Positions 919-62,340 of a DNA stretch of 62,340 nt are shown piece by piece (within the stretch, counting starts at the first letter, position 1; the number at the start of each line of letters is the position of its first letter). Origin of the DNA: Magnetococcales bacterium (lineage in GTDB: Bacteria; Pseudomonadota; Magnetococcia; Magnetococcales; UBA8363); NCBI GenBank assembly GCA_002753515.1, contig PEAK01000021.1:1-62340 (forward strand). Direction: 5' to 3'. The translations under genes and the position numbers were made by a program. The notes under the pieces were generated by a model. The model was not told where the DNA came from. It did no database searches and saw nothing but the letters and a program-made list of their open reading frames with translations.

Positions 919-1200
919 TCATACCTTGTCCGAGAAAACGTCATCCAGTGACTGGGCGTCGAAGATGCGAAGACTCCACTCTTCCAGGGACGACAGGTCC
1001 GCTTTGGCGATCTTTTCGCTGGCCCAGTCGGGTACGGTGCCGAAGCGGCGTTGCAACTGACGGGTCAAGATTTTGGCTTCGCCTTCCTTGCGTCCTTTTT
1101 GTTCGCCTCGCCGTTCGCCGATCTGCTCACTATCCATCTGTGCCTTCATGATTATTGGCCGGAATACATCGTTTTCCATTAAGTTGAAGGTCAGTGACAT
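919..1200 (-). CDS. Possible internally started short form of the Rpn protein
   Basis: Inside the 919-1800 gene and in the same frame, a perfect AAGGAGG (1209-1215) stands 8 nt before ATG 1200 (product begins MSLTFNLMENDVF, 93 aa). The short form would lack the nuclease core and keep the helical linker plus DUF4351. Internal starts producing a C-terminal protein that restrains the full-length nuclease have been reported for Rpn genes (established knowledge). That this start is used here is inference. The AAGGAGG also encodes part of the long protein (KEAEE), so chance is possible, but the other Rpn gene has the same arrangement with identical spacing. Confidence 0.5.
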   Translation of the reverse strand: MSLTFNLMENDVFRPIIMKAQMDSEQIGERRGEQKGRKEGEAKILTRQLQRRFGTVPDWASEKIAKADLSSLEEWSLRIFDAQSLDDVFSDKV

Positions 1201-1800
1201 TTCTTCAGCCTCCTTTTTAACGAACGTTTCCAGTCGACGCAACCTGGACAAAATGACCAATTTTGTCAGGGCATCAGCCCTGGCTTTTATCGGCAGTTCG
1301 GTTATTCGATACAAAATTTCCTGGATCACCTCTTTCTGGTTGTCGATCCGACAAAGGATAGCCAGGATGTTTTCCTCCAAAGACGGGCTGTTCAGAAGCT
1401 CCCGACAATCAATGCTGCGGATATCAATCACCTCGTAGTGAAAGGATAAATTCGGCTCTTCGATAGCCGATCCGCTTTGCCACTCTTGCAGCCCAACGTA
1501 CAGCACCTTCTGAACCAAAACCCTGTTCGGATAACGCTGGCGTATGACCGTGTAATACATCAACATGCGCCAGTCCATGACCTCAGATCTGCCGTGCAAC
1601 TCCAGATGAAAGATCGAATCATCCTTCATCAAGAACACCAGATCAGGAATACGCTTTTGGGTGGAAGCGAACTCCACTGACAAAAGTTCTACGGCTTCCC
1701 GTCCGATCAAAATCTGCAGCAAGCGTTGCGGCGGCTTTTCAAACAAATCCTTGAGGGTGGTATCGTACTGGGATCGGTTCTTTTCTTTCTGATCATCCAT
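919..1800 (-). CDS. Rpn family nuclease / putative transposase with C-terminal DUF4351
   Basis: The product (about 293 aa from ATG 1800; 1815 and 1854 are possible upstream starts) opens with SQYDTTLKDLFEKPPQRLL, the usual start of this PD-(D/E)XK family. The nuclease core is visible as RIPDLVF, then HLELHGR about ten residues later; the position normally written ExK/ExQ is ELH here. The last 60 residues (LTRQLQRRFG to the end, with LRIFDAQSLDDVF) are a DUF4351 tail. Members of the family are DNA endonucleases that promote recombination, and some act against phage (established knowledge). It stands alone, without an operon partner. A strong internal start lies at 1200 (separate entry). A second, more distant paralogue sits at 53462-54538. 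Confidence 0.8.
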   Translation of the reverse strand: MDDQKEKNRSQYDTTLKDLFEKPPQRLLQILIGREAVELLSVEFASTQKRIPDLVFLMKDDSIFHLELHGRSEVMDWRMLMYYTVIRQRYPNRVLVQKVLYVGLQEWQSGSAIEEPNLSFHYEVIDIRSIDCRELLNSPSLEENILAILCRIDNQKEVIQEILYRITELPIKARADALTKLVILSRLRRLETFVKKEAEEMSLTFNLMENDVFRPIIMKAQMDSEQIGERRGEQKGRKEGEAKILTRQLQRRFGTVPDWASEKIAKADLSSLEEWSLRIFDAQSLDDVFSDKV

Positions 1801-2025
1801 AATTCTTGTTGACATCAAGGTGATACGACAGCCATTTCCTATGCGCAAACGCAATATCTGAAACCTGACGACGAGACGTTGGGCTACGGTGAAAAGATTC
1901 TTCCACGGTTAGATTGTCCAGGATTTCAGCCTTGCGGTCCACTGGAATTTGTCAAGTTTGGCTTCAATCACGGCCAAAATCTTTCCGGATGGGCCAAGGA
2001 GAGTAGACCGGGTCCTCCCGTTGCT

Positions 2026-7195: not shown

Positions 7196-7765
7196 ATGCC
7201 TCAAGAAATAACTCTCGACGATATTTGGAAACTGTTCCAGGAAACCGACCGACAGATGAAGGAAACCGACCAGCGGATGAAGGAAACTGACCGGCAGATG
7301 AAGGAAACTGACCGCAAAATAAAAGAAATTTCCATGCAAATTGGAAAATTGGGTGGGCGCTTGGGAGAATTTGTTGAAAGCATGATCGCTCCGGCTTGCG
7401 AGACCCTTTTTGCCGAGAGGGGTATCCCGATCCACAGGGTCAGCCCTCGCGTCAAGGCCAAGCTCGACGGTGGACGGCACATGGAAATCGACCTGCTCGT
7501 CGTGAATTCCGATACCGTGTCGCTGGTGGAAGTCAAAAGCAAGCTGACGGTGGAAGATGTTCAGGATCACATCAGAAAAATGGAAGAGTTCAAAGAATTC
7601 TTCCCGGAATATGCCAACAGGAAAGTGATTGGGGCAGTTGCCGGCATGGTGGTTGATGAAAACGTCATCCGTTTCGCCATTAAAAGGGGATTGTTCGTCA
7701 TGGTACAGTCTGGCGACTCGGTGCATATTGCCAACGAGGCAAGCTTTGTGCCCCACACGTGGTAA
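7196..7765 (+). CDS. Coiled-coil PD-(D/E)XK nuclease-like protein (DUF3782-like), copy A
   Basis: 189 aa from ATG 7196, which has GGGGA just upstream (7169 would add nine unlikely residues). Residues 1-12 are MPQEITLDDIWK. Then come four heptads of the type DRQMKET, KLGGRLGEFVESM, and a nuclease core in which MEIDLLVV gives the Asp and LVEVKSKL the ExK of a PD-(D/E)XK site. Related proteins are annotated DUF3782; substrate and role are unknown. The heptads predict a parallel coiled coil that probably sets the oligomer. It is antisense to the flanking glycosyltransferase genes and is duplicated immediately downstream as copy B. Confidence 0.75.
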   Translation: MPQEITLDDIWKLFQETDRQMKETDQRMKETDRQMKETDRKIKEISMQIGKLGGRLGEFVESMIAPACETLFAERGIPIHRVSPRVKAKLDGGRHMEIDLLVVNSDTVSLVEVKSKLTVEDVQDHIRKMEEFKEFFPEYANRKVIGAVAGMVVDENVIRFAIKRGLFVMVQSGDSVHIANEASFVPHTW

Positions 7766-7943
7766 AGGCAGTCTGGTCAACCATGAACACACTACCGTAT
7801 CAATGATGACTCTCTCCCAAAAACAATCTACAAAAATATCAAGCCTGTGAAAATATTCCCGGAATGTTTGGCATGGGAATTTCTCGGCATGGTAAACTGG
7901 CAGTGATTTGCAAAATATGACCGAGACCTGATGGAGAAGGGCC

Positions 7944-8555
7944 ATGCCTCAAGAAATAACGATCGACGATATTTGGAAATTATTCCAGGAAACTGACCGG
8001 CAGATGAAGGAAACTGACCGGCAGATGAAGGAAACTGACCGTAGAATTCAGGAAACTGACCGGCAGATGAAGGAAACCGACCAGCGGATGAAGGAAACTG
8101 ACCGCATAATAAAAGAAGTTTCCATGCAAATTGGAAAATTGGGTGGCCGATTGGGAGAATTTGTTGAAAGCATGGTCGCTCCGGCTTGCGAGACCCTTTT
8201 TGCCGAGAGGGGTATCCCGATCCACAGGGTCAGCCCTCGCGTCAAGGCCAAACTCGACGGTGGACGGCACATGGAAATCGACCTGCTCGTCGTGAACTCC
8301 GATATCGTGTCTCTGGTGGAAGTCAAAAGCAAGCTGACGGTGGAAGATGTTCAGGATCACATCAAGAAAATGGAAGAGTTCAAGGAATTCTTCCCGGAAT
8401 ATGCCAACAGGAAAGTGATTGGGGCTGTCGCAGGCATGGTGGTTGATGAAAACGTCGTCCGTTTTGCCATTAAAAAGGGGTTGTTCGTCATGGTACAGTC
8501 TGGCGACGCGGTACGCATTGCCAACGACAAAACCTTCGTGCCCCACACGTGGTAA
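7944..8555 (+). CDS. Coiled-coil PD-(D/E)XK nuclease-like protein, copy B
   Basis: 203 aa, starting MPQEITIDDIWK after GGAGAAGGG. Its body is nearly identical to copy A from the end of the heptads onward, with the same MEIDLLVV and LVEVKSKL site. It carries six heptads instead of four and one variant unit, DRRIQET. The 150 bp upstream also match those of copy A (ATGACTCTCTCCCAAAAA and GAAAATATTCCCGGAAT), so the duplicated unit included the promoter region. The duplication is recent and in direct tandem. The copy ends 50 bp from the convergent GT4 gene. Confidence 0.75.
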   Translation: MPQEITIDDIWKLFQETDRQMKETDRQMKETDRRIQETDRQMKETDQRMKETDRIIKEVSMQIGKLGGRLGEFVESMVAPACETLFAERGIPIHRVSPRVKAKLDGGRHMEIDLLVVNSDIVSLVEVKSKLTVEDVQDHIKKMEEFKEFFPEYANRKVIGAVAGMVVDENVVRFAIKKGLFVMVQSGDAVRIANDKTFVPHTW

Positions 8556-24753: not shown

Positions 24754-25380
24754 ATGACACAGGCAGTAACCTTTGACGATGTCTGGAGAATGTTCCAGGA
24801 AATGGTCCGGGAGGATCGTGAGCGGAGAGCGGAACTCGACCGCAAATTCCATGAGACCGACCGGCAAATGAAAGAGACCGACCGTAGAATGCAGGAAACC
24901 GACCGGCAAATGAAAGAAACCGACCGCTTGGTCAAAGAGGTCAGCCGGCAGGTTGGCAATTTGGGCAGCCGGTGGGGTGAGTTCATCGAAGGGATTGTGG
25001 CTCCCGCCTGCGAGACCCTGTTTGCCAAGCGGGGCATCCCGGTGCATCGTGTCTCACCCCGGGTCAAGGCAACAAGCATGGACGGCAGCCGCCGCATGGA
25101 GATCGACCTGATGGTGGTTAACACCGACAGCGTTGTCCTGGTGGAAGTCAAGAGTCGCCTGACTGCGGAAGATGTCCGTGATCATCTGAAACGGGTGCGC
25201 GAGTTCAAAGAATTCTACGAAGGCGCAGACGGTGCGAAGGTGATGGGTGCCGTGGCCGGTATCCTGATTGATAACGATGTCGATAAATTTGCCATGAACG
25301 AGGGATTGTTCGTCATCGTTCAGTCTGGCGACAGCGTCAAGCTGGCCAATGACGATACGTTCGTACCACGCATTTGGTGA
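24754..25380 (+). CDS. Coiled-coil PD-(D/E)XK nuclease-like protein, copy C
   Basis: 208 aa, starting MTQAVTFDDVWRMFQEMV. After a charged REDRERRAELDRKF segment come five heptads (last DRLVKEV), the hinge VGNLGSRWGEF and the nuclease core with MEIDLMVV and LVEVKSRL (the Asp and ExK of the site). It ends in SVKLANDDTFVPRIW. The core is shared with copies D-F at near identity and with A and B more distantly. It is first of a direct array of four, all on the plus strand, separated by short near-identical spacers containing ACCGCCATAG. Confidence 0.75.
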   Translation: MTQAVTFDDVWRMFQEMVREDRERRAELDRKFHETDRQMKETDRRMQETDRQMKETDRLVKEVSRQVGNLGSRWGEFIEGIVAPACETLFAKRGIPVHRVSPRVKATSMDGSRRMEIDLMVVNTDSVVLVEVKSRLTAEDVRDHLKRVREFKEFYEGADGAKVMGAVAGILIDNDVDKFAMNEGLFVIVQSGDSVKLANDDTFVPRIW

Positions 25381-25454
25381 GCGGGTGCGTTTTTGTGAGA
25401 ATGAGCTGTTTCCATAGGCGACCCGGTAACACCGCCATAGCAGGGGAAATCACC

Positions 25455-26144
25455 ATGACACAGGCTGTAACCTTTGACGATGTCTGGAAAATGTTCCAGG
25501 AGATGGTCCGGGAGGATCGTGAGCGGAGAGCGGAACTCGACCGTAGAATGCAGGAAACCGACCGGCAGATGCAGGAGACCGACCGTAGAATGCAGGAAAC
25601 CGACCGGCAAATGCAGGAGACCGACCGTAGAATGCAGGAAACCGACCGGCAGATGCAGGAGACCGACCGAAAATTTCAGGAGACCGACCGCTTGGTCAAG
25701 GAGGTCAGCCGGCAGGTTGGCAACCTGGGCAGCCGGTGGGGTGAGTTCGTCGAAGGCATCGTGGCTCCGGCCTGCGAGACCCTGTTTGCCAAGCGGGGCA
25801 TCCCGGTGCATCGTGTCTCGCCCCGGGTCAAAGCCAAGAGCCTGGACGGCAGCCGCCGCATGGAGATCGACCTGATGGTGGTCAACACCGACAGCGTTGT
25901 CCTGGTGGAAGTCAAGAGTCGCCTGACCGCCGAGGATGTCCGTGATCATCTGAAACGGGTACGCGAGTTCAAAGAGTTCTACGAAGGCGATAGCGGTGCG
26001 AAGGTGATGGGTGCCGTGGCCGGTATCCTGATTGATAACGATGTGGATCGATTCGCCATGAACGAGGGATTGTTCGTCATCGTTCAGTCTGGCGACAGCG
26101 TCAAGCTGGCCAATGACGAAACGTTTGTACCACGCATTTGGTAA
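25455..26144 (+). CDS. Coiled-coil PD-(D/E)XK nuclease-like protein, copy D (longest coil)
   Basis: 229 aa from ATG 25455, which has CAGGGGAAATC upstream; the open frame could begin at 25374, but that stretch is the duplicated spacer. It has eight heptads, the most of the six copies, in strict alternation of DRRMQET and DRQMQET, with a final DRKFQET and DRLVKEV. The nuclease core, with MEIDLMVV and LVEVKSRL, is nearly the same as in copy C. No second domain is present. Expansion by 21-bp units is the simplest account of its length. Confidence 0.75.
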   Translation: MTQAVTFDDVWKMFQEMVREDRERRAELDRRMQETDRQMQETDRRMQETDRQMQETDRRMQETDRQMQETDRKFQETDRLVKEVSRQVGNLGSRWGEFVEGIVAPACETLFAKRGIPVHRVSPRVKAKSLDGSRRMEIDLMVVNTDSVVLVEVKSRLTAEDVRDHLKRVREFKEFYEGDSGAKVMGAVAGILIDNDVDRFAMNEGLFVIVQSGDSVKLANDETFVPRIW

Positions 26145-26217
26145 GCGGGTGCGTGTCTGTAAGACCGATTTGTTTCCAAGGCGACCCGGTAACACCGCCA
26201 TAGTTGGGGGAATAACC

Positions 26218-26886
26218 ATGACACAGGCTGTAACTTTTGAAGATGTCTGGAAAATGTTCCAGGAAATGGTCCGGGAGGACCGTGAGCGGAGAGCGGAACT
26301 CGACCGTAGAATGCAGGAAACCGACCGGCAGATGCAGGAGACCGACCGTAGAATGCAGGAAACCGACCGGCAGATGCAGGAGACCGACCGTAGAATGCAG
26401 GAAACCGACCGGCAGATGCAGGAGACCGACCGCTTGGTCAAGGAGGTCAGCCGGCAGGTTGGCAACCTGGGTAGCCGGTGGGGTGAGTTCGTCGAAGGGA
26501 TCGTGGCTCCCGCCTGCGAGACACTGTTCGCCAAGCGGGGCATCCCGGTACATCGAGTCTCACCCCGGGTCAAAGCCAAGAGCCTGGACAACAGCCGCCG
26601 CATGGAGATCGACCTGATGGTGGTTAACACCGACAGCGTTGTCCTGGTGGAAGTCAAGAGTCGCCTGACCGCCGAGGATGTCCGTGATCATCTGAAACGG
26701 GTACGTGAGTTCAAAGAATTCTACGAAGGCGAAAGTGGTGCGAAGGTGATGGGTGCCGTGGCCGGCATCCTGATTGATAACGATGTGGATCGATTCGCCA
26801 TGAACGAGGGATTGTTCGTCATCGTTCAGTCTGGCGACAGCGTCAAACTGGCCAATGACGATACGTTCGTACCACGCATTTGGTGA
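26218..26886 (+). CDS. Coiled-coil PD-(D/E)XK nuclease-like protein, copy E
   Basis: 222 aa from ATG 26218 (TTGGGGGAATAACC upstream). Seven heptads, again alternating DRRMQET/DRQMQET, end with DRLVKEV. The core is nearly identical to copy D; the clearest difference is KSLDNSRR in place of KSLDGSRR before MEIDLMVV. The spacer to copy F repeats that between C and D. There is no sign of a frameshift, so all four array members appear translatable. Confidence 0.75.
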   Translation: MTQAVTFEDVWKMFQEMVREDRERRAELDRRMQETDRQMQETDRRMQETDRQMQETDRRMQETDRQMQETDRLVKEVSRQVGNLGSRWGEFVEGIVAPACETLFAKRGIPVHRVSPRVKAKSLDNSRRMEIDLMVVNTDSVVLVEVKSRLTAEDVRDHLKRVREFKEFYEGESGAKVMGAVAGILIDNDVDRFAMNEGLFVIVQSGDSVKLANDDTFVPRIW

Positions 26887-26960
26887 GCGGGTGCGTTTTT
26901 GTGAGAATGAGCTGTTTCCATAGGCGACCCGGTAACGCCGCCATAGTTGGGGGAATAACC

Positions 26961-27608
26961 ATGACACAGGCTGTAACTTTTGAAGATGTCTGGAAAATGT
27001 TCCAGGAGATGGTCCGGGAGGATCGTGAGCGGAGAGCGGAACTCGACCGAAAATTTCAGGAAACCGACCGTAGAATGCAGGAAACCGACCGGCAAATGAA
27101 GGAGACCGACCGTAGGATGCAGGAAACCGACCGGCAAATGAAGGAAACCGACCGCTTGGTCAAGGAGGTCAGCCGGCAGGTTGGCAACCTGGGCAGCCGG
27201 TGGGGTGAGTTCGTCGAAGGAATCGTGGCCCCCGCCTGCGAAACACTGTTCGCCAAACGGGGCATCCCGGTGCATCGCGTCTCGCCCCGGGTCAAGGCAA
27301 CAAGCCTGGACGGCAGCCGCCGCATGGAGATTGACCTGATGGTGGTCAACACCGACAGCGTTGTCCTGGTGGAAGTCAAGAGTCGTCTGACCGCCGAGGA
27401 TGTCCGTGATCATCTGAAACGGGTACGCGAGTTCAAGGAGTTCTACGAAGGCGAAAGCGGCGCGAAGGTGATGGGGGCCGTGGCCGGCATCCTGATTGAT
27501 AATGATGTAGACAAATTCGCCATGAACGAGGGATTGTTCGTCATCGTTCAGTCTGGCGACAGCGTCAAACTGGCCAATGACGAATCGTTCGTACCACGCA
27601 TTTGGTGA
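26961..27608 (+). CDS. Coiled-coil PD-(D/E)XK nuclease-like protein, copy F
   Basis: 215 aa from ATG 26961. Six heptads (DRKFQET, DRRMQET, DRQMKET, DRRMQET, DRQMKET, DRLVKEV) are followed by the core with MEIDLMVV and LVEVKSRL and the ending DESFVPRIW. Parts of its coil resemble copy C (KET units) and its upstream spacer resembles that of E, as expected if segments were exchanged between copies. It is the last member of the array; 140 bp of spacer precede a secreted repeat protein. Confidence 0.75.
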   Translation: MTQAVTFEDVWKMFQEMVREDRERRAELDRKFQETDRRMQETDRQMKETDRRMQETDRQMKETDRLVKEVSRQVGNLGSRWGEFVEGIVAPACETLFAKRGIPVHRVSPRVKATSLDGSRRMEIDLMVVNTDSVVLVEVKSRLTAEDVRDHLKRVREFKEFYEGESGAKVMGAVAGILIDNDVDKFAMNEGLFVIVQSGDSVKLANDESFVPRIW

Positions 27609-29176: not shown

Positions 29177-30129
29177 ATGTTTAATCTGTTACGACTGGTT
29201 ATTTTTTCCATTCTGGCGTTTTTTTTATTTTCCAAAACCAAATCGTGGAGGTTTCGGCCGATGGCGGTACCAACACCCCATCCGTAGGCGAACAAAGTTT
29301 TTCCAATCGTTTGAAAAGTGTCTCTGCGCTTACTGACGCTTTGGACCGGATTCGTAAAGAAAAAAATAGGGGCAAAGAGGCGGAAAATACCAGTGAGAAA
29401 ATTCACCAGTTAACGCATGAGGCGCGTAACCTGGTCGGTAGAGGCGAAATGAATCAAGGGCGTAGCATTCTTGACAGGGCTTATGCAATGGCTAAAATTG
29501 CCATTGAGGAAATGCGGCGGGGCGATACCCTTGTGAATGAAGCCAAGGGGCATATTTTAATAACGAAAGAAAAAACGGATAGCGATGCCTTTTTCGCATC
29601 CTACGGTGAGCAAGATTTTGAGACACGCTTGAAAAATGTTGATGCGTTAACCGTGTCCCTGGACCGGATTATAAAAGAAAAAAATGCTGGTAAGGAGGTT
29701 CAAGATTCCAGTACACTGGTCCAACAGATGACCGAGGAGGCACGCAAATTGACCCGTGCGGGGGAATTCGACAAGGGTCGTCATGTTCTCGACAAGGCCT
29801 ATGTAATCGTCAGGGCGAGCATGGAACAACTCCGTCGTGGCGATACCCTGGCAGAAACGCGCCACCTCACTTCAAAGGAGGAGGAATATTTTCATGAAAT
29901 GGATCGTAACGATACTTACAGGATGCTTGTAGGAATTTTGATCGCCCAAGAAATAAATTCGTTGGATCCAATGGTTAAAAATTTTATCGTCGAGTCGGCT
30001 GAACTCAGACGTCAAGCCAATCAGCAGGGGGAGTCACGTAAATTTTTGGAAGCCATAAAAAGTCTGGAAAATTCAACCATGGCGTTAATCAGGGCGATTC
30101 GCGAATCCGGGTTAAACATTCCCGGATGA
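29177..30129 (+). pseudogene. Secreted/anchored coiled-coil repeat protein with frameshift in T8 tract
   Basis: ATG 29177 follows a GGGGGG ribosome site and gives MFNLLRLVIFSILAFFLF, a signal-like helix, then runs out of frame after eight T (29219-29226). With one more T the frame joins FFFIFQNQIVEVSADGG and reads on for about 300 residues. These contain two similar units of about 100 residues (SFSNRLKSVSALTDALDRI... and DFETRLKNVDALTVSLDRI..., each ending in MRRGDTL or LRRGDTL), all helical. An alternative, lower-quality start is ATG 29245. Either the gene is inactive or phase-variable, or the base is a sequencing error. The last part is duplicated downstream. Confidence 0.6.
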
Positions 30130-30569
30130 CCAATAGGGGATCAGACCAAATGGAACGAATAAAGAAGCACAATCTTGGCATCCCTACCAAAAACACCATC
30201 CAACCACTTAAGAATTATGGCCTTGATCATCGTTTTGTCCGAGCCAACTCATTCTGGATTCCCGCTTTCGCGGGAATGACGAAAAAAACGCTGAGATTGC
30301 AGTTGTTTGTCATTCCATGGAAAATTCAACCATGGCGTTAATCAGGGCGATTCGCGAATCCGGGTTAAACATTCCCGGATGACCAATAGGGGATCAGACC
30401 AAATGGAACGAATAAAGAAGCACAATCTTGGCATCCCTACCAAAAACACCATCCAACCACTTAAGAATTATGGCCTTGATCATCGTTTTGTCCGAGCCAA
30501 CTCATTCTGGATTCCCGCTTTCGCGGGAATGACGAAAAAAACGCTGAGATTGCAGTTGTTTGTCATTCC
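30065..30569. repeat. Direct tandem duplication of 252 bp (period 253)
   Basis: 30065-30316 and 30318-30569 appear identical. The unit holds the last 65 bases of the preceding gene (NSTMALIRAIRESGLNIPG and its stop), non-coding sequence and one ATTCCCGCTTTCGCGGGAAT palindrome (30258-30277, again 30511-30530). A third palindrome follows at 30565-30584. The junction falls inside CATTCC, the left arm of that palindrome. No ORF of its own. Confidence 0.9.
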
Positions 30570-48960: not shown

Positions 48961-50241
48961 GTGATCGTTCAATGCACCAATTGCAGCACCCGTTTCGACG
49001 TCGATGAAGAGATGTTGCTGCCGTCGGGACGAAAGCTCAAATGCTCAAACTGCAAAGAAGTCTTCTTCCAAAAACCTCCGATTCACGACCAGAACGAAGA
49101 ACCGGATGCAGAGTCTCAACCTGAGCCTGAGCCCGCCGATGAGGAATCATTGGAAGAAGCCGACTCCTCCGATACCGAAGGGGATGACGACACCGAAACA
49201 GTCCTGGGACCCGATTTAACTCAGGCCATCCATGCTCCTTCCCCTGATGGAATAGACGATTCAATCGCTTCCGAACTCGATTCCTTATTAAACGATGCTT
49301 TGGAGGAATCCGGCAATTCGGGTGGCAAAGAATCGGAAGAGTTACAGGAGGAGTCCGATGACGCTTCCATGGACGATATCCTGATCGACGAGGAAGTGGT
49401 TCAGGAGGAAGTGGTTCAGGAGGAAGTGGTTCAGGAGGAAGTGGTTCAGGAAGAAGAGGTTCAGGAAGAAGAGGTTCAGGAAGAAGAGGTTCAGGAAGAA
49501 GAGGTTCAGGAAGAAGAGGTTCAGGAAGAAGAGGTTCAGGAAGAAGAGGTTCAGGAAGAAGAGGTTCAGGAGCAGGCAGTCGTTCAAGAAAAGATTGTGG
49601 TGAGGAATGAACCTGTGGAAGAAACAATGGGCATGATGGCAACCCGGGGAGATGCTTTTTCATTGGAGAGTGAAGAGGAAAAAGAAGAGGAAGAGAAGGA
49701 AAAGAAAGCGGGATGGACCTTGGCCCTTCCCCAGGCGAAATGGGGATGGTTGGCATCCTTATTAATGTGTTTGTCGCTGGTTGCCGGCGTGGTTGTACCC
49801 ACGGATTGGTGGGAATTCACCTGGCATGATTTACACAGTTCGTTCCGTTTGGCGGAGTTGGGCGGAGAATGGCGGGTTTACCCCTATGGTACGGTGTTGG
49901 TGGTTCAGGGGCGTTTGAACAATTCGGACAAGTCAACGCAGTTGGCACCCAAAATACGTATCTCCCTCTTGGATCAGGAGAATAAAGAATTGTTGGTTAG
50001 CTCCGTGATACCCGGACGGGTTGTGGATGGAAAATTATTGGATGAAAGCTCCGAGGAATCGTTGCGCACCATGATTGGCTTGCAGGGGGATGCCAAAAAG
50101 GTCAAGGTGGAACGGTTGCCACCGGGCCAAGAAGTCGCCTTCCAGGCCATATTCATCAAACCCCCGGAGGCCGCTGCCCGCTATCGCGTGGATTTTGATA
50201 CCATCGATAAAAAAGCAACCGGGACCATCAATAAACCTTAA
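48961..50241 (+). CDS. Zinc-ribbon (MJ0042) protein with EVQEE repeat and DUF3426
   Basis: 426 aa, GTG start. The zinc ribbon CTNCSTRFDV...CSNCKEVF lies at residues 5-34. An acidic region contains 12 five-residue units of type VVQEE/EVQEE (about residues 146-205). After basic KKAGWTLALPQAKWG comes a membrane helix (LASLLMCLSLVAGVVV), then a DUF3426-type beta-rich domain (WRVYPYGTVLVVQGRLNN). It probably spans the inner membrane with the zinc finger in the cytoplasm. Stop TAA 50239-50241 is the first base pairs of element copy 4, so the element sets its end. Confidence 0.8.
   Translation: MIVQCTNCSTRFDVDEEMLLPSGRKLKCSNCKEVFFQKPPIHDQNEEPDAESQPEPEPADEESLEEADSSDTEGDDDTETVLGPDLTQAIHAPSPDGIDDSIASELDSLLNDALEESGNSGGKESEELQEESDDASMDDILIDEEVVQEEVVQEEVVQEEVVQEEEVQEEEVQEEEVQEEEVQEEEVQEEEVQEEEVQEEEVQEQAVVQEKIVVRNEPVEETMGMMATRGDAFSLESEEEKEEEEKEKKAGWTLALPQAKWGWLASLLMCLSLVAGVVVPTDWWEFTWHDLHSSFRLAELGGEWRVYPYGTVLVVQGRLNNSDKSTQLAPKIRISLLDQENKELLVSSVIPGRVVDGKLLDESSEESLRTMIGLQGDAKKVKVERLPPGQEVAFQAIFIKPPEAAARYRVDFDTIDKKATGTINKP
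49396..49575 (+). repeat. 15-bp in-frame tandem repeat (12 units)
   Basis: Twelve units of 15 bp: four of GTGGTTCAGGAGGAA type, then eight of GAGGTTCAGGAAGAA type (the last ending CAG). Within each group the units are almost identical in DNA, which is the mark of recent expansion. They code VVQEE and EVQEE in the acidic linker. Copy number is likely to vary between strains. Confidence 0.9.
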
Positions 50242-53060: not shown

Positions 53061-53164
53061 AGAACGTGCGGATCAAAAATGGACGGAAAAGGAATGGCAA
53101 GCTTTGAAGAATCAGGATATTCCTCCCCGCCCGCACTGCCCTCCGCAGTACTTGGCGAACAAGA

Positions 53165-53350
53165 TATCCAGGCCGGTCTCCGGGCTGACGCATGGTCGCG
53201 GGCGTGTACTCCGTGACTTGACCAACTCTCATCCCATGCACGACACGCAGGGTGGTTTTGATCCGTTGGTCCAACTGCGTTTACCGTTGCGGGGGCAGCG
53301 CCGGACTTGTGGCATTGGGAACGGCCACACCGGACTTCCCGTTAACCCCG
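53165..53350 (-). promoter_or_regulatory. Cobalamin riboswitch upstream of cbiMNQO
   Basis: On the minus strand the conserved core is present in order: GTTAACGGGAAGTCCGGTG, then AAGTCCGGCGCTGCCCCCGC directly followed by AACGGTAA (central G+C-rich loop), then GCCCGGAGACCGGCC (3' side). These are the standard B12-element pieces. Spacing of about 180 nt and a position 180 nt before cbiM fit. High B12 should shut off the cobalt importer. Confidence 0.88.
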
Positions 53351-53461
53351 ATTGGGGCAATCCTCAACATCGGGGAACCTGAAATCGGGCGTCATTATGA
53401 AACATATGCCAGATCAAGTCAAGTTTACCACCGTGACGCTCGGCAGGTTTCTTCCGGGCAA

Positions 53462-53800
53462 TCAATCGGAAAAAATATCCTCCACGGTTTTGGCGTCCAG
53501 GATGCGATCCGACCAAATTTCAAGGAGTTTTTTATCGGCGGCGTTAACCTTGGCGGATACCGTCTCCGAACACTTGCCAAATCGGCGCTGCAGTTGGCGA
53601 AGCAGGATCGCAGCCGCTTCCTCCCTTCTTCCTTCCTCCCTTACTTCCGCCCTCACTTCCTCCCTCACTTCCTCCCTCACTTCCTCCCTTACTTTCTTCC
53701 GAGCCAAATCCACTGCCCAGGGAGGGGCCTGCCGAACCAAGTCCACTACCCAGGCAGGGGGATTATCGGAGAGGATTTCCTGTGCAAATTGGGATATCAT
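53462..53800 (-). CDS. Possible internally started short form of the Rpn protein
   Basis: A perfect AAGGAGG (53809-53815) lies 8 nt before ATG 53800 inside the Rpn gene, in frame. The product (112 aa, MISQFAQEILSDNPPAW...) keeps the coil and DUF4351 but no nuclease core. Relative position, motif and spacing match those in the other Rpn gene of the window (ATG 1200). In described Rpn genes an internal short protein blocks the long one. Use of this start is inference. Confidence 0.5.
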   Translation of the reverse strand: MISQFAQEILSDNPPAWVVDLVRQAPPWAVDLARKKVREEVREEVREEVRAEVREEGRREEAAAILLRQLQRRFGKCSETVSAKVNAADKKLLEIWSDRILDAKTVEDIFSD

Positions 53801-54538
53801 TCTGGCTTCCTCCTTGGGGTGAGTCGTCCGGATCAGCTCCCGGATGACCACCTCGTTGACGTTCTCGTAAGTTCCGGCAATATACAACACCACCTGATAC
53901 AGCAGCTCAGGAGCATCCCGTAGTGAAAGCCCAAGCAACCTCATGATACCTCGTTGCTCACCCTTGCGGAAGACGAATTTCAAGGCCAGTAATCCCGCCC
54001 GCAGGCGTGGGTTACCGGACAAAACCTCATTTTCGATCTGCCCCAGGTCTACCACAACGAAACGAAAGTTGGGCAGATAAGGGCGCAAGGCATCGTTGTC
54101 GGACATCAAGGCACGCAGTTCGTCTGGAATCCGCCATGGGATGGCACCGTGGTAGATCACTATCCCGATGATCGGGGGAAGCCGCTCCCAGTCTGGGTGT
54201 TCCCGTTCCCATTGTTCCAGGACGCGGGTCATATAGCGGTGTAGCTGCCAGCCGATCTTGCGGTCTGGCCAACTTTTGTGTTCCAGAAGGGTATAGATGA
54301 AGGTTTCCCCACCATCCTTGAGACGCGACCGGTAGAGACGGTCGGTCAGGTGTTCCCGCAGTTCGTCGTCGATAAAGCTGCCGTCCACCAGCTCGGGAGG
54401 ATCGGGTGCGAGCAGCGCCGCAATCTCGCCCGGTAACCGCTCCCGCAACAACGTCCCCGCTGTTTCGGGATCGGAGAGAACAGCCTTTAACAGGTGGTCA
54501 TGAGGCTGTGCGAGGTCGGTCATGCGTTCCGCTTTCAT
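53462..54538 (-). CDS. Rpn family nuclease with DUF4351, fifth gene of the Zorya operon
   Basis: 358 aa. The N-terminus QPHDHLLKAVLSDPETAGTLLRERLP and LLEHKSWPDRKIGWQLHRYM (PD-(D/E)XK Glu-x-Lys at EHK) match Rpn/YhgA-type nucleases. A coil (KKVREEVREEVREEVRAEV) connects to a DUF4351 tail (RQLQRRFGKCSETV). ATG 54538 overlaps the zorD stop by four bases (ATGA) and has AGGA five bases upstream, which argues for translational coupling. An Rpn gene is not part of the known type I Zorya set (zorA-D). A strong internal start exists at 53800. ATG 54523 is a second possible start. Confidence 0.82.
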   Translation of the reverse strand: MKAERMTDLAQPHDHLLKAVLSDPETAGTLLRERLPGEIAALLAPDPPELVDGSFIDDELREHLTDRLYRSRLKDGGETFIYTLLEHKSWPDRKIGWQLHRYMTRVLEQWEREHPDWERLPPIIGIVIYHGAIPWRIPDELRALMSDNDALRPYLPNFRFVVVDLGQIENEVLSGNPRLRAGLLALKFVFRKGEQRGIMRLLGLSLRDAPELLYQVVLYIAGTYENVNEVVIRELIRTTHPKEEARMISQFAQEILSDNPPAWVVDLVRQAPPWAVDLARKKVREEVREEVREEVRAEVREEGRREEAAAILLRQLQRRFGKCSETVSAKVNAADKKLLEIWSDRILDAKTVEDIFSD

Positions 54539-57500
54539 GGTGTCCTATACGGAAACTGAGTCAAATCACGCCGTGCAACCAATTCTATTTGATGGCGCTT
54601 GGCACGTTCTCGTGCCTGAGTTGTATAATTCCTCGCCGTTGTTACGGCCACCAAGCGCGTGTTTTCCTGCTGATAGGCTACCCGTGCCCGCAAGAGATCA
54701 TCGATGGGAGAAGCATCGCAATAAGGCCCTTGGCGGTGTTTGCATTGGATGATCAGAAATTCACCGGTCTGGGAATGCACAGCAATACCATCGGCACCGC
54801 CATCGCCCGATTGGGGGGTACGTTGCGATCTGTATCCGCTTGCCTGAAGACGATGCAAAACCCAGTTCTCGAATTGTTCCGGTGTCATACGGTCCAGTTC
54901 GTCCAACTCCACATCATTTGCCGGTCTTTCGCGGTTGTCGATGCTGCCAATCGTTTCTCGGAACAGGGTCGATTCATCTTCCCCGCCCAACGTAGGCGGA
55001 ACCAGGAGGTCGCGACCCAAGGCACGTTTCTTTTCCAACAATGCGTTCAGTTTGATGTCGAAACTGTTTTCCCCGATCCCGGGGTGAACCGCCATGGGAT
55101 AATAGACTGTCACCGTTTTGCTTTGTCCAATACGGTAAATGCGGTCGGTGCATTGATCCTCAACGGCGGGATTCCACCAACGGGACAAGTGAATGACGTG
55201 GTTGGCAGCGGTCAGAGTCAGACCAACGCCGCCTGCCTTTGGAGACAAAATCATCACGTCGAACTCGCCATGACGCTTCTGGAATTCGTCCACAGCCTTT
55301 TGGCGCTTCTCGCCACTTATTTTTCCGTTGATGAGCATGGGCACTTTGGGCAAATGGAACTCTCGTTTGATCATGAACGCCAGTGTTTCTTGCATGTCCA
55401 GGCTTTCAACAAACACCAATGCTTTTTCCCGCACGCTCGCCACTTGGCGTAGAATTTCAAACGTGGCCGTCAGTCGGGCAGATCCGGCGATGTACTCGTC
55501 ATGGGGAATACACAGCGCCTGCTGAGGGTCGATCGGATGCAAAGATACCCCACGCAGGTTATGGAGAATTTTCAGCATTGTGCCGGGGCCAGATGCTTCA
55601 CGACCACTCGTGACGACTTCTGCATAGCTGTCCGCTTGTTTTTTAGGCATCGCTTTCTGCAATGGAAACGTTCTTTTTTCCGGTAATCCTTCAAGAATGT
55701 CGGTTTTCATGCGGCGCATCATGACGGGGGGGGCATCACCGACCGGGTCCATCATGATCGAACGCAAGCGTTTCAAATCTGCCATCTCCTCTGGTGGATA
55801 ACTTCCAGAAAATTGTTTCAGGTCACACAAATATCCTGGATAGGTGATATCCATGATGGCCCACAGGTCTTCAAGTCTGTTTTCCACCGGTGTTCCGGTC
55901 ATGGTCAGGTTGAAATCGGCATTGACCGTTTTGGCTGCCCTGGCCAGTTGAGAAGTCGGGTTTTTGATTTTTTGGGCCTCGTCGTAAACAGCTATGGCCA
56001 ATCGTACCTTGGCAAACGAATGGTGGTAATCGCGTAGCGTTTCAAAGGTGGTCAAAATCCAACCCGCTTCCTGAAGGGGGGGGCTGTCGAGCAACGGCTG
56101 ACCAAGGTCCACATCACGCCCGCGCCAGCCATTAATGCGTATTTTTTTCAAATGGTTACCATAGGCGCATAATAGCTTACCCAGTCCCGGCGCACTTAAA
56201 TGCCGTTTGTGTTCCGCCTTCCAGTTCGCCAAAAGACCCGTTGGAGCAATGACCATCATGGGCAGGCGTTCCATGCCAAGCCGGGAACGGATGTCAGTCA
56301 TCCATTTAAGAAATGCCAGTGCCAACAACGTTTTGCCAAGCCCCATGTCATCTGCCAACAAAACCCCTGGAAATCCGGCACGCCATGCGGACTGCAACCA
56401 AATCAATCCTTTTTCCTGGTGCGGTTTGAGTGTCGTCAACAAGGGTAAAGGAATGTCGCCGACACCATCCGGGTCCCGAATGGTCAGGTTGCGATGGTAA
56501 GAGACTTTTTCGTAATTCTCATCGACGATGAGGAAGACTTTACCGGATGGCACAGGATTCTCTGTATCCCCGGGGAGATCCGTACCATCTTCCCTGTTCA
56601 ATCCGGGACCAATCCCATTGACATCTGGCTCAGCGAATCCCATCAACTGATCCAAAACATCCAAACTCGCCTGATTGGCAGGGATATCATGCCCTGCGAT
56701 GTGGGCCGTGGTATCACCACGGGCCATGGACGCTGCCACAACACTCCGCGCTGGTTCGATTTCCTTGGCATCCAGCTCGATGCGAAGATCCCCGATCTGG
56801 ATGCCGAACCGCTCTGGCAGCCAATTGTTTGGTTGTCGCTTCAGCCAGGGGAGAACCACGGGCTGCCATATCCCCAGGTCCACAACACGCTGCGAATATT
56901 GTTCGGTGGCGATAAACAGGTGGTCAACGGCATCGTCGGCATCCCCCAGGGCTTCCCTGAGGTAGGTCTGAGGATTACGCGCAAACCTGCGTCTGGTCTC
57001 AACATCCAAGGTTTGCACTTTTCGAACGATGGTCAGTGCTTTCTGCAATCCCGGTTCGATAAAGACATAAAAATGATTGCCCAAACCATAGCGGTCCCGG
57101 CAGGTATTCCATTGCGTAAACCGATCTTTGGAAAAAATCTCTTGCATAGCCTCTGGCAATAAACTTTCCGCTTCACTGACGGATGTTTCGCCTTCGCTAT
57201 CCACCCAAGCTTCCTTGACACGCCGGGCGAACAGAATGGGATCAAACTGAAAACCATCCACATCGGTTCGCAGGCGCAGGGAAAAGGCGGCGGCGTGAAT
57301 GATTTTTAAGTTCCGAATATAGGTATCGGTATCCACCTTGGCATCGTTTTGGTCGGGAATCAGTTCGCGAAGCGAGGCCAGATGGGCAAACCGTGTGCTG
57401 TCATCTTCCGCTGCCGTTGCATTGAAATGCTCGACGCCATGCCAGATGGAAAACAGTGGTTCCGGGATTCGGTAGACCTGACCTCCATTTGTCAGAAGGC

Positions 57501-57900
57501 AACCCGCAACGGTGGCCCGCCAAGCCGGAACCGAAGTGCTTTCCAACCATTGGGCGGTGATGCTGAAATCCCGCTGTGAAATATTACCCCGTGATTGCAA
57601 ACCGATCATGAGGGAGGTGGAATTGGGCAGGTTGAGGGCCTGAGCGTCCGCGTCAGACAGGCCCGCAATCACGGAATGTTTGACCCACAGACGATCATCC
57701 ATCTGTTTGGCCAGTGGTGATTCATGATATTCATCCAATAATTTTAATACTTTACTTACAGAAAACAGGCGCCTGGGTTCAATGGTATCGATCCATTGAT
57801 CGATGGGGATGATCCGTGTTCCCAGAATTTTTTTCTGTACCAGGCGCAGTGTCATGCCATCACCGACATTCTCCCATGCAAACTGGTATTTTGCCCTCAT
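54535..57900 (-). CDS. zorD: Zorya type I protein ZorD: SNF2 helicase with C-terminal Mrr-like nuclease
   Basis: 1121 aa. About 480 N-terminal residues have no motif I can name. A SNF2-type ATPase follows: Walker A LADDMGLGKTLLALAFL near 517, YDEAQKIKN (DEAQ box) near 637, and HLSRWWNPAVEDQCTDRIYRIGQ with the arginine finger toward 900-920. The C-terminus has SGDGGADGIAVHS (Asp near 1033) and LIIQCKHRQG (QxK near 1053), the Mrr-type PD-(D/E)XK site. ZorD is thought to degrade invading DNA once ZorA-ZorB signals. It overlaps zorC by four bases and the Rpn gene by four. Confidence 0.9.
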   Translation of the reverse strand: MRAKYQFAWENVGDGMTLRLVQKKILGTRIIPIDQWIDTIEPRRLFSVSKVLKLLDEYHESPLAKQMDDRLWVKHSVIAGLSDADAQALNLPNSTSLMIGLQSRGNISQRDFSITAQWLESTSVPAWRATVAGCLLTNGGQVYRIPEPLFSIWHGVEHFNATAAEDDSTRFAHLASLRELIPDQNDAKVDTDTYIRNLKIIHAAAFSLRLRTDVDGFQFDPILFARRVKEAWVDSEGETSVSEAESLLPEAMQEIFSKDRFTQWNTCRDRYGLGNHFYVFIEPGLQKALTIVRKVQTLDVETRRRFARNPQTYLREALGDADDAVDHLFIATEQYSQRVVDLGIWQPVVLPWLKRQPNNWLPERFGIQIGDLRIELDAKEIEPARSVVAASMARGDTTAHIAGHDIPANQASLDVLDQLMGFAEPDVNGIGPGLNREDGTDLPGDTENPVPSGKVFLIVDENYEKVSYHRNLTIRDPDGVGDIPLPLLTTLKPHQEKGLIWLQSAWRAGFPGVLLADDMGLGKTLLALAFLKWMTDIRSRLGMERLPMMVIAPTGLLANWKAEHKRHLSAPGLGKLLCAYGNHLKKIRINGWRGRDVDLGQPLLDSPPLQEAGWILTTFETLRDYHHSFAKVRLAIAVYDEAQKIKNPTSQLARAAKTVNADFNLTMTGTPVENRLEDLWAIMDITYPGYLCDLKQFSGSYPPEEMADLKRLRSIMMDPVGDAPPVMMRRMKTDILEGLPEKRTFPLQKAMPKKQADSYAEVVTSGREASGPGTMLKILHNLRGVSLHPIDPQQALCIPHDEYIAGSARLTATFEILRQVASVREKALVFVESLDMQETLAFMIKREFHLPKVPMLINGKISGEKRQKAVDEFQKRHGEFDVMILSPKAGGVGLTLTAANHVIHLSRWWNPAVEDQCTDRIYRIGQSKTVTVYYPMAVHPGIGENSFDIKLNALLEKKRALGRDLLVPPTLGGEDESTLFRETIGSIDNRERPANDVELDELDRMTPEQFENWVLHRLQASGYRSQRTPQSGDGGADGIAVHSQTGEFLIIQCKHRQGPYCDASPIDDLLRARVAYQQENTRLVAVTTARNYTTQARERAKRHQIELVARRDLTQFPYRTP

Positions 57901-59273
57901 ACAGAGTGCCTTTCAGATAGTGCTATGCCGGTATGTCTCCGAATAAAATCAAGGACATCGCCCTGCCAATTGCGACCATGTACTTTATTGAAATTTGAGC
58001 CGTTGACCAACTCATCCCGATGGTAGGCATGACGATACAGTTTGGGCGCATCTGCATTGTCTGGAAGCCAAATATGGCATTTCCCGTTGTGGCTCCAATC
58101 GGCAACCACGAGATTACCAATGTGCATGATCAAAACAGCATGATCTTTTGATACGCCAGCGGATGCGAGTACTCCAAAATTTCCAATGGCGGGATTTTCC
58201 TTCTCGGCAGCCAAGCGCCTCGCGAGAGTTGCTCCGTCTTTCGCAAAAGCCACCCAAGCTTCAAGCATGAATTTGCGTTCGTAAAAGGCATACCAGAACT
58301 TTCGTCGCGCCGGCCACATGTGAGATTGCGCGGTGCGGTCCACAACATCCAAAAATTGTTCGAGGGATGCCCGGGTCAACCATCGGCGCATGACTTGCTG
58401 GGCCTTCTCATTCACATCGAGCCAACGTGAACGATCGATCCGTAAATCATGCAGCAAAGAGAAGAGATGGGATTCAATGAATAGCCTGACATCATCGGGT
58501 GGTGTCCGATCAATCCATGGCAGCAACAGGGATTCCGCCATGCGGGCCATCGCTTTGGGTGTGGATGCAAAAGCGAATTGATTATCTTTCATTCCCCAGC
58601 TTACGAAACGCTTGATGGTCGGTAGTGACGCGGGGGATTGGGTAAGTATGCTATAGATTTTCTGGGCGCTGAGACTATAGGAATAAGCCGCCAGCCGCGA
58701 ACCATAAAGCGATCCACCGAAACCTGCCTCATCCATGGCTTTGTCCGGTGCATTCGTGGATTGCATCACGTAATTCGCAAGATTTATGGGGGCGGCGGAT
58801 ACGTCAAAAATTCCCAATTTGGCTTGCTTTTCCTTCCATCCCCACTGCCACTGGGGAACGATTTCTTTAAGAAAAACGGCAATTTTGTGAATGCCGGGAT
58901 GGGTTGGCGCAAAATACGTCAGGTAAAAACGAATCAATCGGGAGACCGCCAACCTGGATCGTTGTCCTCTGAGTTGCCCCAAATACTCATCAAGAAAGCC
59001 TTGATCCCCAATCAATGGTTGTTGGCCCATACCGAGGCATTCGGCGGCATAGCGCCAATCACGGGAGGAGATGCTATTCCATGTACCTGTCGCTCTGGCC
59101 TGGAACAACCGTTCCCGCAGATCGTTGAGGTCGATCAGATCAACAGTGGCACTGACATCGCGCAAACGTTTCGCCACGACATGACTGGCGTCAACCATCT
59201 GAGGCGTCAGTGGAAACGTCAACTTTTTTGGTACCCAGACGGATATTTTTTCAAGGGCATCGTCCAGATTCAA
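57897..59273 (-). CDS. zorC: Zorya type I protein ZorC (EH-signature type)
   Basis: 458 aa, mostly helical, with no catalytic motif that I can recognise. Identification rests on size, on its place between zorB and zorD (four-base overlaps on both sides) and on the absence of any other candidate. Conserved-looking parts are PQWQWGWKEKQAKLGIFDVS and SHNGKCHIWLPDNADAPKLY. ZorC binds DNA and is needed with ZorD for defence (family knowledge). I cannot test the EH-signature match by eye. Confidence 0.82.
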   Translation of the reverse strand: MNLDDALEKISVWVPKKLTFPLTPQMVDASHVVAKRLRDVSATVDLIDLNDLRERLFQARATGTWNSISSRDWRYAAECLGMGQQPLIGDQGFLDEYLGQLRGQRSRLAVSRLIRFYLTYFAPTHPGIHKIAVFLKEIVPQWQWGWKEKQAKLGIFDVSAAPINLANYVMQSTNAPDKAMDEAGFGGSLYGSRLAAYSYSLSAQKIYSILTQSPASLPTIKRFVSWGMKDNQFAFASTPKAMARMAESLLLPWIDRTPPDDVRLFIESHLFSLLHDLRIDRSRWLDVNEKAQQVMRRWLTRASLEQFLDVVDRTAQSHMWPARRKFWYAFYERKFMLEAWVAFAKDGATLARRLAAEKENPAIGNFGVLASAGVSKDHAVLIMHIGNLVVADWSHNGKCHIWLPDNADAPKLYRHAYHRDELVNGSNFNKVHGRNWQGDVLDFIRRHTGIALSERHSV

Positions 59274-60025
59274 GGCTTTCGCTCCTGAACCTGCTGTTCG
59301 ACCTGTTCCAGTTGGCTCGCTTTGGGTGTGGTCATGATAAATCGCAAATCAATTCGCCGGTTTTGGCGCTTGTTGTCATCGGAGTCGTTGGGACGGACCG
59401 GGCGTTGTTTGCCATAACCCGAAACACTGAGAATGGCCTGGGCCTTGGTGTTTCGCAACAGAACGAGCTTTGGGTTACCTTCAATCATGGAATGATAGGT
59501 TTGCAGACCCCGCTGAACCGAAAGATTCCAGTTCAATGCCTCATCCCCATCGCTGTCGGTATGTCCCTCGACAAAAACGGCTTCAATGGTATGCGGCGTG
59601 TCTGGACAGGTGCTTGGACGACTTTCCCCTGGTAACGTTGCGAAGCACGGTAATACCGCATTCAAAGACCGACCAAGAACAACAATGGCGTCTCGACCTT
59701 TGCCGTTCAAATCGGCACGATTGCGATCAAAGAGGATGTTTTCCGGAAGCCGGAGAATGCCGTTCTCGATATCGATTTCAACCGTGATACCTTGATCCTT
59801 CAAAGATTTTTGAAAATTTTCAAGCATCTCCCTGCGCGTATCCTCGGCGCTTAGCAAAGTTTTGGCTGTCTTGGTTATTTGCACCGTCGCCTCATTGAAT
59901 TTCAGGGCAAAAAACATCAACATGAGAATGAACAGGAAGAGCATGCCGACCATCATGTCGGTCATGGATGCGAAGAATCCCTCATTTTCCTGGTCGACTG
60001 GTACGTGGCGACGACGAATGGCCAT
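59270..60025 (-). CDS. zorB: Zorya protein ZorB (MotB/OmpA-like)
   Basis: 251 aa. One membrane helix (VGMLFLFILMLMFFAL, about 26-41) is preceded by Asp23 in SMTDMM, the MotB-type proton-site aspartate. A helical linker leads to an OmpA-like peptidoglycan-binding domain: VEGHTDSDGDEALNWNLSVQ, then VSGYGKQRPV and NRRIDLRFI. With ZorA it forms an ion-driven motor anchored to the cell wall. The gene starts 18 bp after the zorA stop. Confidence 0.92.
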   Translation of the reverse strand: MAIRRRHVPVDQENEGFFASMTDMMVGMLFLFILMLMFFALKFNEATVQITKTAKTLLSAEDTRREMLENFQKSLKDQGITVEIDIENGILRLPENILFDRNRADLNGKGRDAIVVLGRSLNAVLPCFATLPGESRPSTCPDTPHTIEAVFVEGHTDSDGDEALNWNLSVQRGLQTYHSMIEGNPKLVLLRNTKAQAILSVSGYGKQRPVRPNDSDDNKRQNRRIDLRFIMTTPKASQLEQVEQQVQERKP

Positions 60026-60043
60026 GGTGTGTATTCCCCCGGT

Positions 60044-62188
60044 TTACCGTAAACCCGGGCGTTGACGAGAGGCTGTGGTGGCCTCTTTCAGGGACTTGGT
60101 CGCTTCGGTAAGCTCTGTCGCTATTTCGTTCAGTTCCTCAATGTTACCGGCGAAAATATTGACTGTTTGCGCCAATGCTCCATCAATTTTTTGGACCTGT
60201 TCTTCGAGTATGGTTGTGTTTTTGTCAGAAATATCCTTAATTTTTATCAATGCGTTACCAAGATTTTCATCCGCCTTGTCAAATCGGTTGGCATGTCGGT
60301 TCCAAATGGTCTGTAGTTCCTGCAACGTGCCGGAAAGTTCTTTGGATAGTGTGGTGCTTTGCCGATGCGTTTCATCCAAAGCCTTGACCGTGGTCTCAAT
60401 GGACCGTGTTGAGTTGTCGATAGCTTCTCTCAATGTTTGGGTCGCCTGCTTCAACGGTTGTCCGGCATCGACCAGTGCCCGCGCCGCTGTGGATAACGAC
60501 CCTTCCGTTTCCCTGGCTGCGCGATTGACACCATCCAACGCCTGGGCGTGCAGGCCAATTTTGCCTTCCACGGCATCCATGGTCGCACGGACCTTGCCGA
60601 TACTCTCTTGAAACCGAGTGAGTACCTGATCTGTACTGGAGACCACTTTGGCGGCTGCTTGACCTACACCTGTTTCCGCTTGACTGCCAGCGGCAATGAT
60701 ACGCTCAACGGCTTCGCCAATGTGGTCGGAATTGCGATGGGATGCCTCCTGCATGGCTTCGGCGGCCTTGACGAGCCGCTCGGTCAACCCGGCCACACCA
60801 TCGACAGCCCCCTGGCGAATCTGGCCTGTGATGGCAGCAACGGATTGGGCCATTTGCTCGGATGTTTCTCTCATCGTCTGGACGACTGTTTGGGTCCTCG
60901 TGGTCATCGCCCCAGTGGCGTTCATTGTGACATCACGCAATTGTCCAAGCGCTTCTTGAATGGCGTTCGCGTTGGCCTGTGTGCCTGTTTCAACACGCGC
61001 AACAGCATCCGCAATCTGTTGGGCGAATAGCGTCCCCGCCTCGTGCGTCGAATTGCGCATGACCCCACCGGCATCCGCCAAACTGCCGCGAATGATTTCG
61101 GCCACTTGGGTGAGTCCATCTGTAGCAGCTCGCAACTGGGCGTCGAGGGTATCGCGGGTTTTGTCCACATCGTTGCGCACGGAGGCCGTAATACCGCTCA
61201 TGCCTTCAGTGATAGCTTTGGCTGCTGCCCGGAGATCACCAGCGGCTTCCGCTATCTGCCCTGACAATCCACTGCCGCTCCCCGCCACAGCTTTCGATGT
61301 CTCCAACAAGGCATCCTTGACCGAGATCAACGCTTCGGACGCGCCACGGATTTCAGAGCCGGCATTGGCGGATACCACCGATCCAAACTCTTGTGTCATC
61401 GTCTGGATGGCGCTCTCATTCATATTGGAGATGTTCTGGGTCACCGAATCCAGTTTTTCCGAGACCGGTAACATCGCCTCATGCATTACTCCGGGCATCG
61501 CGTTGCGCAGCGCCTCTTCAAGTGCTTTGCCCAGATTGAACGCCAGTTGACCAGTGAATTCTTTTAATTGTGTGGACTGTTCACGGAGTTCATTAAGCTG
61601 ACGATTCGCCAGCATTTCAGTCGTGACGGTGCGGGTACAGCGCTCAATTTCACGGCATAATGCGTTTAGTCTTTTATCCAGCCATCGAACTGAAAAGCGA
61701 TAAACCATTCCCAAGACAATGGAACTGCCCAATCCTGCGATAGACGTCCAAAATTTGAACGTGGCTGCGCTCAACAGTTGTGCCAACGCCCCCTGCATCT
61801 TGACGGTCTGCTGGGTGGCATCGATGCCTTCTCCACCTACAGCCTGAATGGCTTGGGAGGCAAAAAACAGAGCCGCAACGAGACCAATGAAGGTGAACAG
61901 AAGGCCAAAGCCAACAAAAGTTCCCGGGATGTTGTGGAACCACTTTAGCTTAAGCCCGGCATGTTCCAACTCCGTCAGGTTGATAAAATCGGACGGCCTG
62001 ATGGTGCTTTCAATGACGTTTGAATTTTTACTCTGTGGAAGCAACGTTTCTTTATATTCCGACCACCCATGACAAAGAAATCTACTTTTATTCATTTTGG
62101 CGTCGAAGTCGTCGAAATTCAGAAAAAATTCTGATCGGTCTTTGCAAGACTTAAAGAAGCGAACACGAGGCGATACTAATCCGTGCAT
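60044..62188 (-). pseudogene. zorA: ZorA (MotA-like), upstream end lost to IS630 insertion
   Basis: 714 aa counting from ATG 62188, which lies close to the insertion. A helical stretch (CHGWSEYKETLLPQ) precedes two membrane helices: FVGFGLLFTFIGLVAALFF (about 90-108) and SIAGLGSSIVLGMVYRF (about 148-165). About 540 residues of coiled-coil tail follow, rich in ALREAID-type repeats. Full-length ZorA has an additional N-terminal helix; here the upstream frame runs straight into the IS630 end. The start, the ribosome site and probably TM1 are missing. Expression from 62188 or 62095 is possible but the motor would be incomplete. Confidence 0.85.
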
Positions 62189-62340
62189 TGGATAGCCGAC
62201 ATATGCTATACTCCAGGGTATGAACGTTACCGATACCGATGGGCGCAAACTGAACCATAAAACTCTGGAAGAGATTCGTATCCGAGCCGTTCGGCGAGTT
62301 GAGGCCGGGGAATCTCCAGAGACGGTCATCCAGGCGTTGG
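62175..62340 (+). mobile_element. IS630-family insertion sequence, left part (runs off the window)
   Basis: ATG 62220 gives MNVTDTDGRKLNHKTLEEIR, continuing RAVRRVEAGESPETVI. The KLxHKTLEEIR and AVxRVxAGESPExVI pattern is the helix-turn-helix start of IS630-family transposases. Only 40 codons are in the window. The left end must lie close to 62175-62195, where the zorA coding pattern stops; the exact terminal inverted repeat and TA target duplication cannot be fixed without the right end. Confidence 0.75.

Follow-up and report, generated by a model that had tools for sequence, protein, structure and literature searches.

In a type I Zorya system studied previously, every component was needed for phage defence (PMC11890865). 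Rpn proteins, in turn, form toxin-antitoxin systems whose genes are found clustered with those for defence; their antitoxin RpnS typically contains four-residue repeats, and the rpn genes of E. coli have internal transcription starts for it (PMC10327210). Within the collection of papers searched, no report of Zorya together with Rpn was found. Here, both known and ordinary families meet in a window (the whole stretch of DNA analysed) of 62,340 nt, which is one entire contig (C55) of a genome assembly (G000) of 4.33 Mb and 134 contigs that break at repeats. Among named organisms, Magnetococcales are its closest relatives. The locus is very probably a type I Zorya operon that an IS630-like element interrupts at the 5' end and to which a one-gene module of the Rpn toxin-antitoxin type has been joined directly behind the zorD stop codon, rpn not being a Zorya component. 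The features are as follows, in the order in which the minus strand is read:

62174..62340, no strand assigned: end of an IS630-like insertion sequence and end of the contig (TA target, terminal inverted repeat TACTAATCCGTGCATTGGATAGCC)
60044..62173, minus: zorA, 5'-truncated, 709 aa readable (PADLOC ZorA1; NF033914, 316.9 bits)
59270..60025, minus: zorB, MotB/OmpA-like (PADLOC ZorB1; OmpA)
57897..59273, minus: zorC, EH_Signature (PADLOC ZorC1; PF15611)
54535..57900, minus: zorD, SNF2 helicase with Mrr_cat nuclease (PADLOC ZorD1; PF00176, PF00271, PF04471)
53462..54523, minus: rpn (RpnL), start at M6 (PF04754 and DUF4351; start shared by relatives)
53808..53815, minus: internal Shine-Dalgarno-like sequence AAGGAGGA for RpnS (SD-like sequence at the same site in homologues)
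53462..53800, minus: rpnS, predicted intragenic antitoxin of 112 aa, MISQFAQ...DUF4351 (conserved internal Met, DUF4351, analogy with PMC10327210)
53632..53694, minus: 12-nt repeat encoding VREE-type four-residue repeats in the long first helix of RpnS (Tandem Repeats Finder)

The Zorya operon and its truncated zorA

The genes zorA, zorB, zorC and zorD, followed by rpn, all lie on the minus strand in the type I order, and the initial annotation of the four-gene set as a type I Zorya in standard order was confirmed by the PADLOC assignments ZorA1, ZorB1, ZorC1 and ZorD1 together with the expected domains (EH_Signature, SNF2/Helicase_C/Mrr_cat and OmpA). ZorD shares 76-82% identity with its counterparts in two other Magnetococcia. 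The zorA start that had been placed at 62188, by contrast, could not be upheld: this position is inside the IS630-like end (62174-62340), and zorA is therefore truncated at its 5' end. These 167 bases are 100% identical at seven contig ends of the genome and contain, on the plus strand, the beginning of a reading frame resembling that of a transposase (MNVTDTDGRKLNHKTLEEIRIRAVRR), which was also seen in another copy (L128); the partner end of the element (TACTAAGGAGTGCATTGGTTAGCC), located on other contigs, adjoins DDE_3 fragments. The N-terminus of ZorA was not encoded at any of the six contig ends carrying this other IS end, and since no partner end is joined to it, the assembly lacks the 5' part of zorA. 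Other members of the population may carry an intact zorA. Alignment of the readable ZorA to NF033914 begins at profile position 35. The cytoplasmic tail is present, whereas the first transmembrane segment (TM1) is absent; homologues whose 5' end is complete have TM1 some 100 residues ahead of the next membrane segment. Given that every component was required in the type I Zorya studied (PMC11890865), the operon, in its assembled form, probably does not function, and it may best be regarded as a member of the type by descent and not as an intact system.

The junction between zorD and rpn

The fifth gene had been described as Rpn-type, which is in accordance with a PF04754 match of 158 bits (cut-off 21) and the presence of DUF4351. 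It retains the PD-(D/E)XK residues D61, which is invariant, and E81-H-K83 of the E81-x-K83 motif; its structure model was of low confidence (pLDDT 66) and showed no significant PDB match. In this genome and the sister genomes, the first residue of the close relatives of rpn is Met, or in rare cases Val, and lies a few positions ahead of (Q/H)PHD. As this position is conserved in all relatives and corresponds to M6, rpn most likely starts at 54523, with 11 nt separating it from the zorD stop codon, and the earlier start at 54538 would merely add five residues upstream of the conserved one. From sequence comparison, zorD and rpn are thus most likely 11 nt apart and do not overlap. The ATGA overlap proposed earlier exists as literal letters at 54538-54535, but as an overlap of the two genes it is unlikely, and the AGGA noted with it is indeed present upstream but not conserved in the two closest Zorya loci (G020 and G029). 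In both of these zorD likewise ends in ATGA, and neither has rpn. ATGA is thus the stop context of zorD itself and, with AGGA not conserved, neither sequence is evidence of evolved coupling; the suggestion that rpn is translationally coupled to zorD was not borne out.

Co-transcription of zorD and rpn is nevertheless plausible, since the 11-nt gap, the shared strand and the lack of any terminator-like site between the two genes make it likely. Alternatively, rpn might be independent, with a promoter of its own at the junction or within zorD, and adjacent only by accident. The mostly solitary position of the rpn copies in the genome and the internal transcription starts of the E. coli genes (PMC10327210) would fit such independence; however, nothing promoter-like was found directly upstream of 54523, the nearest match (9/12) being at 54941-54913 inside zorD, and the DNA upstream of the sister rpn has here been replaced by zorD, so that we consider this explanation unlikely. 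Loss of a native rpn promoter was considered as well and dropped, because no promoter-like consensus was found upstream of rpn in the sister species either. Among upstream regions of rpn copies, a common -10 element was present in 16 of 51 as compared to 12.7 expected from shuffles, which is not significant overall; eight of the -10-like matches are at -12. Several Magnetococcia rpn genes (e.g., L161, L154, L170 and L041) are preceded by TGACTTG and a TGNTATNCT-like pattern, with a -10-like hexamer 12 nt before ATG whose count is not above that of shuffles. This arrangement suggests that several Magnetococcia rpn copies may be transcribed as leaderless mRNAs.

The origin of rpn is indicated by its nearest relatives, which belong to the same genus (89% over 204 aa in G041, 81% in G045 and 78% in G044). 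DNA homology of rpn to G045 and G041 (87%) begins at 54535, i.e., at the zorD stop codon, and in G045 runs to 53469, the end of rpn, while DNA homology of zorD ends at 54572 (G029) and 54546 (G020) in the two closest Zorya loci. Both homologies break at the zorD stop, which argues for two separately evolving modules joined at this point. In the sister species G045 and G041, where zorD gave no hit, rpn sits after a phospholipase-A2-like gene; on its other side, in G045, is a purB-like gene (named from sequence and not by family search). At the purB locus of the genome analysed here (purB-like DNA on contig C18), no other close rpn was found. A cobalamin riboswitch (Rfam, 53154-53397) is located about 65 bases beyond the rpn stop and is followed by cbiMNQO-like genes, named from their sequences and homology in the genus; with these flanks no clean empty site was found in the genus, as the upstream regions differ. 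An assembly or binning artefact at the zorD-rpn junction is extremely improbable: the assembly is fragmented, with 134 contigs and breaks at repeats, but rpn is single-copy at this level of similarity, the next copy in the genome being at 48%, so that there is no repeat able to join contigs falsely, and the break coincides precisely with a stop codon. The locus illustrates how the joining of two defence genes at a stop codon can give the appearance of an operon with an ATGA overlap.

The predicted intragenic antitoxin and the abundance of rpn genes

By its sequence features, rpn has the layout of RpnL/RpnS toxin-antitoxin genes, namely an internal start, VREE repeats and DUF4351. The sequence AAGGAGGA is located 7 nt before the internal ATG at 53800, and all 44 rpn homologues (44/44) have an SD-like sequence ahead of the corresponding internal Met, as compared to 44/243 for other internal Met codons. 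Glutamate-rich coding contributes to this SD-like sequence, and the preference for GAG at this place is only mild (odds ratio of 1.75, p = 0.004).

A profile search of the 4.33 Mb genome yielded 14 matches for PF04754 and 66 matches above the cut-off for DUF4351, the latter corresponding to about one per 65 kb; rpn of the window thus belongs to a large family whose members are scattered over the genome. At this density, an Rpn/DUF4351 gene near any given locus is not rare, and with 66 DUF4351 genes present adjacency to one of them is weak evidence; more generally, where a genome contains dozens of members of one family, gene neighbourhood is a weak basis for inference. For one B. thuringiensis strain, 26 rpn copies have been reported (PMC10327210). 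The size of the DUF4351/Rpn expansion is the striking feature of this genome, rather than the meeting with Zorya. Neighbour distances were determined for 50 DUF4351/Rpn copies using a simple reading-frame scan and not a gene caller: the copies are mostly solitary genes, a few others are also within 60 bp of a reading frame on the same strand, and rpn of the window shows the tightest packing against a verified gene, which counts against a purely incidental pairing with zorD. Near-tandem DUF4351 arrays with a spacing of about 966 bp were also observed, e.g., on contig C88 of the genome (1899-13098, L224). The window itself contains a second Rpn-like gene (919-1854, minus strand, 311 aa) with a DUF4351 C-terminus and no PF04754 match to its N-terminus.

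Further repeats were observed in the window. A 15-nt repeat with 11.9 copies and 98% matches (49393-49571, Tandem Repeats Finder) codes for EEVQE repeats in a protein whose start resembles an MJ0042-type zinc-ribbon protein. A 253-bp unit is present in two exact tandem copies at 30065-30569, and several arrays of closely similar 21/42-bp units of the GAAACCGACCGGCAGATGA type lie apart from one another within 7239-8104 and 24837-27166.

Recurrence of the pairing and comparison with known systems

The presence of rpn within 20 bp of zorD in other genomes, on which the proposed five-gene arrangement depends, was not found: it occurred at 0 of 40 other zorD-like loci, which were searched by tblastn with a panel of Rpn proteins (downstream reading frames were listed for 16; three of the 40 had less than 200 bp after zorD, and two were copies of one plasmid system). 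The rpn-less loci include the two closest Zorya relatives. At greater distance, a type I Zorya locus of an alphaproteobacterial MAG (L012, 4680-6002) has a PDDEXK_2 and DUF4351 gene on the strand of zorD, 342 bp downstream of it, and an rpn gene was found about 1.8 kb upstream of zorA in G037; based on these two cases, some recurrent association of Zorya and Rpn is possible. The gene in L012 resembles rpn of the window in being an Rpn-like nuclease beside a type I Zorya on the same strand, but it belongs to another PD-(D/E)XK family (PF12784) and is separated from zorD by the 342-bp gap, without overlap.

These findings also bear on whether rpn could, in this lineage, be an accessory gene that genuinely forms the fifth part of Zorya; co-translation would then keep RpnL near ZorCD as a second nuclease or, once Zorya has been triggered or broken, as an abortive fallback. 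The same strand, the 11-nt gap without a terminator-like site and the second Zorya-DUF4351 neighbour in L012 are in line with this idea, as is the fact that rpn is not decaying, given that its catalytic residues and internal antitoxin start are intact. Nevertheless, we regard it as very unlikely, since the pairing was absent from all 40 other loci including the two closest relatives, zorD gave no hit in the genomes that carry the nearest relatives of rpn, homology breaks exactly at the zorD stop and zorA is truncated at the locus; the evidence lends no support to rpn as a functional fifth gene of Zorya. A broader version of the idea, in which Rpn/DUF4351 genes would be captured recurrently at Zorya 3' ends in rpn-rich magnetotactic bacteria as a fallback, such that disabling of Zorya or a fall in its mRNA would shift the RpnS:RpnL ratio and kill the cell, appears very doubtful. 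If Rpn did work with Zorya, a sensor-triggered nuclease system would be linked to an intragenic toxin-antitoxin, but the evidence is not in favour of this.

Taken all together, the zorD-rpn pairing looks like chance or defence-island capture and not like a new fifth component. Following the preferred reading of a truncated Zorya operon to which an Rpn module has been joined, we propose that the zor mRNA now includes rpn as its last gene, that translation of rpn begins at a weak site of its own (GCGGAA, ahead of the ATG at 54523), and that RpnL would cut DNA unless restrained by RpnS. A functional link between rpn and ZorABCD, if there is one, would then be incidental, as with hitch-hiking defence genes.

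As compared to type I Zorya, the locus has all four components, the order and the domains, with ZorA above the NF033914 cut-off. It differs in that the zorA 5' end and TM1 are missing via the IS630-like element, in that ZorB and ZorD are under the NCBIfam equivalog cut-offs, consistent with a divergent clade, and in that ZorC has no NCBIfam match. As compared to RpnL/RpnS (PF04754/COG5464, PMC10327210), rpn differs in the position of the repeats, which begin about 36 residues past the Met of the predicted 112-aa RpnS instead of 8-20, whereas it shares the PF04754 domain with the D and ExK motif, the DUF4351 C-terminus, the conserved internal SD-Met, the four-residue repeats and the multi-copy occurrence.
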